Made by a program: the position numbers and the translations under genes. Below the pieces are notes generated by a model that made no database searches, had not been told where the DNA came from, and was given only the letters and a program-made list of their open reading frames with translations. Shown in pieces: positions 7,219 through 16,200 of a stretch of 64,000 nt of DNA (position 1 is its first letter; each line of letters begins with the position of its first letter). The DNA comes from Glandiceps talaboti (lineage: Eukaryota > Hemichordata > Enteropneusta > Spengelidae), in NCBI RefSeq assembly GCF_964340395.1, contig NC_135569.1:19060457-19124456 (forward strand), read 5' to 3'.

Positions 7219-10200
7219 CTTTGAACAAAAAATAAAGACATGAACTTTAAACTTGAAACTTAAACACCATAAAAAAACATTATCTCAGTACATATAATTG
7301 TATTCTCTGCAACCATGAAACAGTATTTCTCATTTTATATTGCAAATCTGACTGTACATGTATGAAGACCCATAGAAATACCAGTTAACCTAGAAGTATA
7401 ATGAAGGTGTGGAGTCATGTTTATAGTTAACTAAATACTTTGTTTGTTGTCCTTCAAGTTCCCCAAAACCACACAGACAGACAGGGAAAAATCAAACACA
7501 GACAAAAACACAATATTAGCATGTCATGTAAAACTCCATTTTCTGTTGATTTATTTTCTGTTTGTACCTAAATCTACTGCACAGGTGAAATATAAATATC
7601 AACATGCAAAGTATGATTGTCTTAAAGTGGCCATATGGATGAGAATTGGGTACTTGAAAAAAAACATGAAATAACTTATACTGTGTTTGTAAAGTAATAA
7701 ATTGCAAAACATTCCAAAACATTTGTTATTGTATGTACAATAACAAACTTTTTAAAACTTTTTTTTTCAATTTACTGAGTTACAAACACAGACTTGGCAT
7801 ATGTTATTTCACGTTGTTTTATCAAGTATGAAAACATAGTAAAGTTGTTTTTATAATTTTAACATCCAAAATAAATACCCAAATCTGATCCATATGGCAT
7901 CTTTAAGACAACTATTTAGAAATATGTGTAGTTATTCTGAAGACATCTCAAATGTCTTTCCATGTACAATAGTATGAAAAAGGCCTTCTGTGGAATTTTT
8001 GAACAAAACAAATTTTGTTTGTTTTTCTAAATTTACCAACAAACCTTCCCAAACATACACATGAATTTACTTGATGGTGCTTATAAATGTTATTTCTATG
8101 GATTTTATACACATACAAATGTACAAAGTGAGAATTGCAATTGGAATATTCAAACTGGCACAGTGAACTTCTGAGTAATATTTCAAAGTCTGACAAAAAT
8201 AGGATATTGTCTTTGTTTGTCATTTTTATGAACTCCTAGAATAAGTGTATATAATTCTATCCCTCCTTCCTCCACACCAATCCACCAATATCCAAATACA
8301 ATGAGTACCACTCAAGTAAAGCACTTTCTCTATGTGCTACACTCATTTATATCATTCATATCAAGTGTAAAAGTATACTGTTTCAATTGGTTTATTTACA
8401 AGCCTAGCATGTGGCTTTTCTAATGTGGTCAATAAGCAGTTGAAACAGTATACTTTTACACTTGATAAGTTTGTATGGATGCTATAAATGATTGTGGTAC
8501 ACCCCGAAAACTCATTACTTTGGTGTTATGGGTTGTATGGATGCTATAAATGATTGCGGTACATCCCGAAAACTCATTACTTTGGTGTTATGGGTTGTAT
8601 GGATGCTATAAATGATTATGGTACATTCCGTAAACTCTTTATTTTGGTGTTATGGGTTGTATGGAAGCTATAAATGATTGTGGTACATTCCGAAAACTCA
8701 TTACTTTGGTGTTATGGGTTGTATGGATGCTATAAATGATTGCGGTACATCCCGAAAACTCTTTACTTTGATGTTATGGGTTGTATGGATGCTATAAATG
8801 ATTGTGGTACATCCCGAAAACTCATTACTTTGGTGTTATGGGTTGTATGGGTGCTATAAATGATTGTGGTACACCCCGAAAATCTTTACTTTGGTGTTAT
8901 GGTTGAATGGAAGCAATTGTGGTACACCCCGAAAACTCTTTATTTGGTGTTATAGGTTGTATGGATGCTATAAATGGTTGTGGTACATCCCGAAAACTCT
9001 TTATTTTGGTGATTTGGGTTGTATGGATGCTATAAATGATTGTGGTACACCCCAAAAACTCTTTATTTTGATGTTATGGGCTCTATAGAAGCAATTGTGG
9101 TACATACAGAAAAAGCTTTACTTTGGTGTTATGGGTTGTAAATTAACAACAATTTATGCAAGTTATCTCTCAGTAAACTTATAAATTTTAGTACATACCT
9201 CCATAGATAATACAAGTTGATTTTGCTACATCAACACTAGTACATACCTCCATAGATAATACAAGTTGATTTTGCTACATCAACACTAGTACATACCTCC
9301 ATAGATAATACAAGTTGATTTTGCTACATCAACACTAGTACATACCTCCATAGATAATACAAGTTGATTTTGCTACATCAACACTAGTACATACCTCCAT
9401 AGATAATACAAGTTGATTTTGCTACATCAACACTAGTACATACCTCCATAGATAATACAAGTTGATTTTGCTACATCAACACTAGTACATACCTCCATAG
9501 ATAATACAAGTTGATTTTGCTACATCAACACTAGTACATACCTCCATAGATAATACAAGTTGATTTTGCTACATCAACACTAGTACATACCTCCATAGAT
9601 AATACAAGTTGATTTTGCTACATCAACACTAGTACATACCTCCATAGATAATACAAGTTGATTTTGCTACATCAACACTACTACATACCTCCATAGATAA
9701 TACAAGTTGATTTTGCTACATCAACACTAGTACATACCTCCATAGATAACACAAGTTGATTTTGCTACATCAACACTAGTACATACCTCCATAGATAACA
9801 CAAGTTGATTTTGCTACACCAACACTAGTACATACCTCCATAGATAATACAAGTTGATTTTGCTACATCAACACTAGTACATACCTCCATAGATAACACA
9901 AGTTGATTTTGCTACATCAACACTAGTACATACCTCCATAGATAATACAAGTTGATTTTGCTACATCAACACTAGTACATACCTCCATAGATAACACAAG
10001 TTGATTTTGCTACATCAACACTAGTACATACCTCCATAGATAATACAAGTTGATTTTGCTACATCAACACTAGTACATACCTCCATAGATAATACAAGTT
10101 GATTTTGCTACATCAACACTAGTACATACCTCCATAGATAATACAAGTTGATTTTGATACATCAACACTAGTACATACCTCCATAGATAATACAAGTTGA

Positions 10201-13200: not shown

Positions 13201-16200
13201 CAACACTAGTACATACCTCCATAGATAATACAAGTTGATTTTGCTACATCAACACTAGTACATACCTCCATAGATAATACAAGTTGATTTTGCTACATCA
13301 ACACTAGTACATACCTCCATAGATAATACAAGTTGATTTTGCTACATCAACACTAGTACATACCTCCATAGATAATACAAGTTGATTTTGCTACATCAAC
13401 ACTAGTACATACCTCCATAGATAATACAAGTTGATTTTGCTACATCAACACTAGTACATACCACCATAGATAATACAAGTTGATTTTGCTACATCAACAC
13501 TAGTACATACCTCCATAGATAACACAAGTTGATTTTGCTACATCAACACTAGTACATACCTCCATAGATAATACGAGTTGATTTTGCTACATCAGCTGAA
13601 ATATTGTCACTCATCCATTTACGTAAAGCTTCATGGACTTCTTGTGCCTACAAAAAAGTGACATCACAGAAAAGTGACTATACACCTATGTATACTACCA
13701 TGCACACATATACATCTGTGACTCTACTAAGTGTGAATGAGTGTAGTGGAGTCACAGATTCAGTCAGTAGACAGGCTATAGTGAGTGAGTGTAGTAGAGT
13801 TATAGATTCAGTCAGTAGACAGGCTATAGTGAGTGAGTGTAGTAGAGTTATAGATTCAGTCAGTAGACAGGCTATAGTGAGTGAGTGTAGTAGAGTTATA
13901 GATTCAGTCAGTAGACAGGCTATAGTGAATGAGTGTAGTGGAGTCACAGATTCAGTCAGTAGACACGCTATAGTGAATGAGTGTAGTGGAGTTACAGATT
14001 CAGTCAGTAGACAGGCTATAGTGAATGAGTGTAGTGGAGTCATAGATTCAGTCAGTAGACAGGCTATAGTGAATGAGTGTAGTAGAGTTATAGATTCAGT
14101 CAGTAGACACGCTATAGTGAATGAGTGTAGTGGAGTCACAGATTCAGTCAGTAGACAGGCTATAGTGAATGAGTGTAGTGGAGTTACAGATTCAGTCAGT
14201 AGACAGGCTATAGTGAATGAGTGTAGTGGAGTTACAGATTCAGTCAGTAGACAGGCTATAGGGAATGAGTGTAGTGGAGTTATAGATTTAGTCAGTAGAC
14301 AGGCTATAGTGAATGAGTGTAGTAGAGTCACAGATTTAGTCAGTAGACAGGCTATAGTGAATGAGTGTAGTGGAGTCACAGATTTAGTCAGTAGACAGGC
14401 TATAGTGAATGAGTGTAGTAGAGTTATAGATTCAGTCAGTAGACAGGCTATAGTGAATGAGTGTAGTGGAGTTATAGATTTAGTCAGTAGACAGGCTATA
14501 GTGAATGAGTGTAGTAGAGTCACAGATTTAGTCAGTAGACAGGCTATAGTGAATGAGTGTAGTGGAGTCATAGATTTAGTCAGTAGACAGGCTATAGTGA
14601 ATGAGTGTAGTAGAGTTATAGATTCAGTCAGTAGACAGGCTATAGTGAATGAGTGTAGTAGAGTTATAGATTCAGTCAGTAGACAGGCTATAGTGAATGA
14701 GTGTAGTGGAGTCATAGATTTAGTCAGTAGACAGGCTATAGTGAATGAGTGTAGTGGAGTCATAGATTTAGTCAGTAGACAGGCTATAGTGAATGAGTGT
14801 AGTGGAGTCATAGATTCAGTCAGTAGACAGGCTATAGTGAATGAGTGTAGTGGAGTTACAGATTTAGTCAGTAGACAGGCTATAGTGAATGAGTGTTGTG
14901 GAGCCATAGATTCAGTCAGTAGACAGGCTATAGTGAATGCGTGTAGTAGAGTCACAGATTTAGTCAGTAGACAGGCTATAGTGAATGAGTGTAGTGGAGT
15001 CACAGATTTAGTCAGTAGACAGGCTATAGTGAATGAGTGTAGTGGAGTCATAGATTTAGTCAGTAGACAGGCTATAGTGAATGAGTGTAGTAGAGTTATA
15101 GATTCAGACAGTAGACAGGCTATAGTGAGTGAGTGTAGTGGAGTTATAGATTTAGTCAGTAGACAGGCTATAGTGAATGAGTGTAGTAGAGTCACAGATT
15201 TAGTCAGTAGACAGGCTATAGTGAATGAGTGTAGTAGAGTTATAGATTCAGTCAGTAGACAGGCTATAGTGAATGAGTGTAGTGGAGTCACAGATTTAGT
15301 CAGTAGACAGGCTATAGTGAATGAGTGTAGTGGAGTTACAGATTTAGTCAGTAGACAGGCTATAGTGAATGAGTGTAGTGGAGTCATAGATTTAGTCAGT
15401 AGACAGGCTATAGTGAATGAGTGTAGTGGAGTCACAGATTTAGTCAGTAGACAGGCTATAGTGAATGAGTGTAGTGGAGTTACAGATTTAGTCAGTAGAC
15501 AGGCTATAGTGAATGAGTGTAGTGGAGTCATAGATTTAGTCAGTAGACAGGCTATAGTGAATGAGTGTAGTGGAGTCACAGATTTAGTCAGTAGACAGGC
15601 TATAGTGAATGAGTGTAGTGGAGTCATAGATTTAGTCAGTAGACAGGCTATAGTGAGTGAGTGTAGTAGAGTTATAGATTCAGTCAGTAGACAGGCTATA
15701 GTGAGTGAGTGTAGTGGAGTTATAGATTTAGTCAGTAGACAGGCTATAGTGAATGAGTGTAGTAGAGTCACAGATTTAGTCAGTAGACAGGCTATAGTGA
15801 ATGAGTGTAGTAGAGTTATAGATTCAGTCAGTAGACAGGCTATAGTGAATGAGTGTAGTGGAGTCACAGATTTAGTCAGTAGACAGGCTATAGTGAATGA
15901 GTGTAGTAGAGTTATAGATTCAGTCAGTAGACAGGCTATAGTGAATGAGTGTAGTGGAGTTATAGATTTAGTCAGTAGACAGGCTATAGTGAATGAGTGT
16001 AGTAGAGTCACAGATTTAGTCAGTAGACAGGCTATAGTGAATGAGTGTAGTGGAGTCATAGATTTAGTCAGTAGACAGGCTATAGTGAATGAGTGTAGTA
16101 GAGTCACAGATTTAGTCAGTAGACAGGCTATAGTGAATGAGTGTAGTGGAGTCATAGATTTAGTCAGTAGACAGGCTATAGTGAATGAGTGTAGTGGAGT

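Follow-up and report, generated by a model that had tools for sequence, protein, structure and literature searches.

Work on the choice of one splice donor from several identical ones side by side has relied largely on engineered duplications, and the naturally occurring relatives of such arrangements are of several kinds. Recursive splice sites are zero-length exons in which an AG directly precedes a GT (AG/GT, the slash marking here and below the splice junction). The closest precedent is human IFI6, reportedly the gene treated by Turri et al., where a minisatellite of 12-bp units in about 26 copies is said to lie at an exon-intron junction. The title of that article, as it stands in two reference lists (PMC4526556, PMC2915984), speaks of minisatellite units giving multiple splice donors in one transcript. 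Intron gain by tandem duplication, as described by Ma, Lan and Niu (2016, PMC4974935), proceeds through duplications across or at an exon-intron boundary that create extra splice sites. Here we describe an array of 90 copies of an exon end and its donor in the gene for triosephosphate isomerase (TPI) of the acorn worm Glandiceps talaboti, located in a stretch of 64,000 nucleotides (nt) on contig C23, one of 47 that make up a 590-Mb assembly; this whole stretch is called the window below, and the analysis covers this one genome assembly at the level of sequence. In the open-licence literature searched, we found no report on Glandiceps introns, none on exon-junction donor arrays besides IFI6, and none on hemichordate arrays of this type.

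TPI lies on the minus strand, and exact splicing of the annotated Glandiceps talaboti protein (P0002) places seven exons and exclusively GT-AG introns, yielding a 249-amino acid protein that is 100% identical to it over its full length. According to the initial annotation, the end of exon 6 and its donor are repeated head to tail about 90 times with no gap. This has been borne out by Tandem Repeats Finder, which reports 89.9 copies of a 49-bp period at 9189-13594 (98% matches, score 8560), and by a parse in exon register on the minus strand, which delivers 90 gapless units from 13596 down to 9187. Each unit combines the last 37 nt of exon 6 with 12 nt from the start of intron 6, the donor reading GGAG/GTATGTAC; the coding end of the exon is thus part of the unit, and the contrary outcome named in the initial annotation as a refutation is excluded. 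Unit 1 is the genuine exon 6 end and, with the donor at 13559, the array begins inside the exon without any gap. The more specific statement that the same 49 bp recur throughout holds for the period, but the array comprises 14 unit types and not one, and its last unit ends GTACTAAA, from where on the intron is non-repeated. Of its 49 positions, unit 1 shares 47 with the consensus of the array and differs at two, which belong to the exon part. The GTATGT donor is kept in 90/90 units, and the exact 11-mer GAGGTATGTAC in 84 of them. Regarding the unit types, their order is irregular, except that units 26-43 equal units 72-89 in type order, a duplication of an 18-unit block.

Such an array is far beyond chance. 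When a 98-bp query (two units) was compared with the whole assembly, the 41 places found among the best candidates scored all fell within this array, and the 49-bp unit is thus likely to be rare elsewhere in the assembly. With units of 49 bp (minisatellite units being 10-100 bp) arranged head to tail, high identity and locus specificity, the last judged from the best candidates scored only, the array is a minisatellite. It resembles ordinary intronic minisatellites in its tandem expansion, its block duplication and its single-locus unit, but differs from them in that the unit includes a working exon end along with an entire donor. The high similarity of the units (98%) could also point to an assembly artefact inflating the length or even the existence of the array; however, its 4.4 kb are shorter than usual long reads, its 14 unit types stand in irregular order with one duplicated block, and comparable arrays, of 2 to 15 units each, are present elsewhere in the assembly, which makes this explanation highly improbable.

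Compared with the systems mentioned above, the TPI array is like IFI6 in spanning an exon-intron junction with a consensus donor in each unit. It is unlike IFI6, as described above, in its dimensions (49 bp, 90 copies), in the 37 nt of coding exon per unit, in being accompanied by another array within TPI and in the occurrence of others in further genes. With respect to an IFI6-like precedent, it is new that the units are longer and rich in coding sequence, that the copies are far more numerous, that a single housekeeping gene has two arrays and that such arrays recur across the genome. Unlike in the AGGT model of intron gain, intron 6 (7219-13559) is not bounded by the GT and AG of successive copies; as the acceptor lies outside the array, 1970 bp past its end, and no new intron has been formed, intron gain by tandem duplication is ruled out.

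A second junction array, absent from the initial annotation, occupies intron 2 of TPI. Exon 2 ends ...GGTGCATTCACAGGAGAAATTAG/GTAAATAC, and the array units consist of GGCATTCACAGGAGAAATTAG and the intron start. AG/GT is kept in 11 of the 55 units scored, the exon's own included, and lost in 44, of which 41 have changed to AGATAATA. Within a single gene, one array has therefore kept all its donors and the other has lost most of them.

Arrays of this kind are also found in dynein heavy chain genes. As a sample of exons, we used 89 AAA_6 domain matches to the dynein heavy chain genes of this genome (examined as sets of 87 and 2), chosen with no regard to arrays; myosin head (78 matches) and AAA_9 (57 matches) exons were outside this sample. 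Three donor-spanning arrays were located at these exons (contigs C26, C17 and C8; Table 1), which is a rough lower bound, since arrays more than 60 nt from the match end were left uncounted and some matches cross an intron, with stops inside. The second array of the C8 gene was a chance find in a flank and hence stands outside the count of three. Two further dynein arrays begin 9 and 16 nt past a donor that they do not include, another array spans an acceptor, and the set of 2 matches had no array within 60 nt. In the LEKR1-like gene of the window, none of 12 introns has a junction array. With intron 2 of TPI and four dynein heavy chain arrays of the same kind, the initial description of the intron 6 array as very unusual is not supported inside this genome. 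Tandem arrays constitute 6.8% of the 101,567 bases of the dynein sample and, if births are uniform (37 non-redundant arrays, mean period 33), 1.0-1.3 donor-spanning arrays would be expected at 87 donors, so that the excess of the three seen is not significant (Poisson P about 0.09-0.13, calculated by hand).

Genome-wide, a motif count gives weak evidence on donor motifs in tandem arrays. Three AGGTAAGT within short gaps gave 945 + 917 matches versus 59 + 93 for a permutation with the same dinucleotides (AAGTAGGT), but backward controls were likewise high (483 + 330 and 439 + 266) and a few long arrays dominate the matches. Counted as arrays on contig C1, the figures are at least 6 versus 2; in the flanks of three of the C1 arrays (L078, L079 and L085), read by eye and with no protein search made, no attached exon was recognised. 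L085 and its neighbours (C1:5046389-5049298) form an array of 27-bp units that extends over about 2.9 kb, many of its units containing AGGTAAGT.

Regarding its origin, the intron 6 array is probably an intronic minisatellite of neutral birth: in a genome with many minisatellites, a tandem duplication would have covered the boundary between exon 6 and intron 6, the upstream donor still being usable. Duplication across the junction followed by expansion had already been proposed in the initial annotation and is well supported by the identity of unit 1 with the exon end, by the two differences common to the copies and by the duplicated 18-unit block. Because the copies share two changes absent from unit 1, the array grew from one early copy. 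Duplications would arise more or less anywhere in a genome with a high birth rate of minisatellites, and those covering an exon end and its donor would survive, the copies merely lengthening the intron; expansion and block duplication would come afterwards. The array would be tolerated because a downstream copy leaves the original donor intact. Since similar arrays occur at other exon ends with no significant excess over uniform births, a neutral origin is the likeliest one. In the 35-bp array of the C8 dynein gene, a 7-bp repeat (GATAGAA) is located in the exon and in the residual intron exactly at the duplication ends, which suggests slippage, end-joining or microhomology-mediated duplication, as each of them would leave such a repeat. 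Several points nevertheless weigh against a neutral origin. The C8 case is the only one of its kind, the other four cases compared having no clear repeat at their duplication ends; two junction arrays among the ten arrays of TPI are more than uniform placement predicts, one of them having prompted the choice of the window; and 90/90 intact donors are equally predicted by selection. Moreover, from work on duplicated 5' splice sites, identical downstream donors are expected to compete well with the upstream one, and the use of donor 1 is deduced from one annotated protein.

As donors, the copies score 10.2 with a profile that includes exon 6's own donor, and at least 99.5% of 536 background GTs score lower. 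When each of the 18 real donors in the two window genes is left out in turn, their scores range from 3.9 to 12.9 (median 9.1). Their predicted U1 pairing (-8.3) equals that of exon 4's and exon 6's own donors, the real donors spanning -6.7 to -12.1. By score and predicted U1 pairing, the copies are strong donors. The annotated protein results from the use of donor 1 at both exon 2 and exon 6, and the spliceosome would keep to donor 1 probably because the exon is defined from its acceptor and because the donor transcribed first is also committed first. In engineered duplications of the 5' splice site, it is usually the donor closer to the acceptor that prevails, which predicts the opposite of donor 1 use, whereas exon definition and transcription order would favour donor 1. 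Any of donors 2-90 leads to a stop codon ending 11 nt past the normal exon 6 end, and the resulting RNA would be expected to be degraded.

In the initial annotation, the array was suggested to act as a set of decoy U1 binding sites or to tune TPI splicing. As each copy reaches the score of a full donor, equals the real donor in predicted U1 pairing and would always extend the exon into this stop, the array might be a splicing regulator: the 89 extra donors would compete with donor 1 or dock U1, part of the TPI transcripts would run into a premature stop and decay, and array length would tune the TPI level. We consider this function rather unlikely. Among copies 2-90, 12 of the 49 columns vary and none of the seven columns of GTATGTA does, an invariance that fits chance (P = 0.12), so that selection on the array donors is unproven. 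The sister array of intron 2 is without donor in 44/55 units, and U1 is so abundant that a single gene could hardly titrate it. Finally, an early stop downstream of the donor is not unusual: an in-frame stop precedes the second donor in 6/6 junction-array cases, but among the 16 other introns in the two window genes, 14 likewise contain one within 50 nt, so that it is nothing special as a filter for tolerated arrays.

Many U1 sites could also suppress premature polyadenylation in the second half of intron 6 (telescripting). Indeed, 86 AGGTATGT are present in this intron, followed just past the array by AATAAA at 4492, 4554, 4615, 4916, 5163 and 6004 nt into the intron. However, the first four of these belong to the neighbouring 62-bp array, introns 1 and 4 contain AATAAA without AGGTRAGT or AGGTATGT, intron 2 contains neither by these patterns, and the array is explained without any function, making telescripting very unlikely. 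The intron 4 array, despite the absence of both motifs, carries a weaker donor-like CAAGTAAGA.

The copies could alternatively support unit-wise or recursive splicing, the GT of one unit being joined to a later AG with regeneration of the donor and stepwise shortening of the intron. As in recursive splice sites, an AG directly precedes the donor in each TPI unit (ATGGAG/GTATGT), AG/GT is found at the junction in 5 of the 6 donor-spanning arrays, and each event would leave exon 6 and a working donor unchanged. In contrast to recursive splice sites, the acceptor half is weak when scored with the profile of the window's 18 acceptors: the would-be acceptor of intron 6 reaches -2.1, the 72nd percentile of 457 background AGs, and the four other AG cases -4.1 to -8.4, while the 18 real acceptors, left out one at a time, score 1.3 to 16.4. 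With such scores, the strong polypyrimidine tract and acceptor of a recursive site are not recognised in the units; moreover, an intron of 49 nt would be very short. Recursive splicing is hence barely credible, and a neutral birth with use of the upstream donor is still the explanation that we favour.

The junction arrays are part of a gene rich in repeats, tandem arrays accounting for 59-97% of the length of TPI introns 2-6 (Table 1). For the other TPI arrays, mid-array units (introns 1, 3, 4 and 5, and the 62-bp array of intron 6) had no exon match at E up to 0.01, a threshold at which a badly decayed likeness could escape. On its sense strand, intron 3 contains 105 copies of a donor-like GTAAGTAT. 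Related minisatellite sequence is common to introns 4 and 6 (20539-23123 and 8304-9140), the 65-bp unit matching 8304-8358 at 91% and the 62-bp unit matching 20345-20368. Elsewhere in the window, a gene for a LEKR1-like coiled-coil protein (P0121, 13 exons) is located upstream of TPI on the same strand, an open frame at 62386-62799 encodes a hAT transposase dimerisation domain (PF05699, E 2.8e-9), and scans of the window for Rfam families (gathering threshold) and tRNAs gave no matches.

Table 1. Features of the TPI gene (window positions) and junction arrays at dynein exons (contig positions)
Feature	Position	Strand	Unit and copies	Remarks
49-bp exon-tail/donor array, intron 6	9187..13596	minus	49 bp x 90	GTATGT donor in each unit; 14 unit types; Tandem Repeats Finder and unit parse
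Exon-tail/donor array, intron 2	29452..32306	minus	42 bp (41-43)	units from inside exon 2; interrupted by about 520 bp of non-repeat sequence (30889-31405)
TPI exon 1	36717..36831	minus		start codon at 36831; exact splicing
TPI exon 2	32281..32404	minus		last ~27 nt (KGAFTGEI S) begin intron 2 array
TPI exon 3	29124..29208	minus		exact splicing
TPI exon 4	23367..23499	minus		exact splicing
TPI exon 5	18864..18949	minus		exact splicing
TPI exon 6	13560..13647	minus		88 nt; unit 1 takes in its last 37 nt (13560-13596)
TPI exon 7 and stop codon	7100..7218	minus		exact splicing
TPI intron 6	7219..13559	minus		6341 bp; ~79% tandem array (49-bp array and 62-bp array)
Intron 6 donor	13548..13559	minus		GGAG/GTATGTACTAGT; supplies intron part of unit 1; used in annotated protein
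Intron 5 array	13733..18774		48 bp x 105	97% of intron; 89 nt from donor, 85 nt from acceptor; no exon match
Intron 3 array	24070..28131		27 bp x 151	no exon match
Intron 4 array	20539..23123		65 bp x 39	unit with donor-like CAA/GTAAGA; no exon match
62-bp array, intron 6	8471..9140		62 bp	beside 49-bp array; no exon match
Dynein array, C26	14340942-14341438		63 bp x 7.8	exon tail RHGLMLVGPAGSGKTK and AAG/GTACGT; GTACGT in 7/8 donors
Dynein array, C17			56 bp x 2	donor-spanning
Dynein array, C8, first			31 bp x 15	donor-spanning; exon share only 3 nt
Dynein array, C8, second			35 bp x ~5	exon tail IEFLNTYPSQ and CAG/GTAA; same C8 gene, exon outside AAA_6 domain
Acceptor-spanning array (L030)	C12:1725150-1725714		192 bp x 3	polypyrimidine tract, AG and ~11 nt of dynein exon

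One genome thus provides a natural series of junction arrays, with 90 intact donors in TPI intron 6, 55 mostly decayed ones in TPI intron 2, and 2, 5, 7 and 15 intact ones in dynein genes. Donor usage across this series would be a direct test of the proximity, exon-definition and first-come rules of splice-site choice. These arrays illustrate how coding sequence can give rise to minisatellites that come to fill introns, and they suggest that gene predictors and short reads may mishandle exons of this type. The TPI array itself looks like the spill-over of a repeat-prone genome across exon edges. A more far-reaching idea, unlikely but conceivable, is that exon-tail/donor minisatellites form a genome-wide class in which the first of up to 90 identical donors is reliably picked, those that keep their donors being perhaps maintained as length-variable sinks which divert part of the transcripts to decay; if this is true, array length would set expression.

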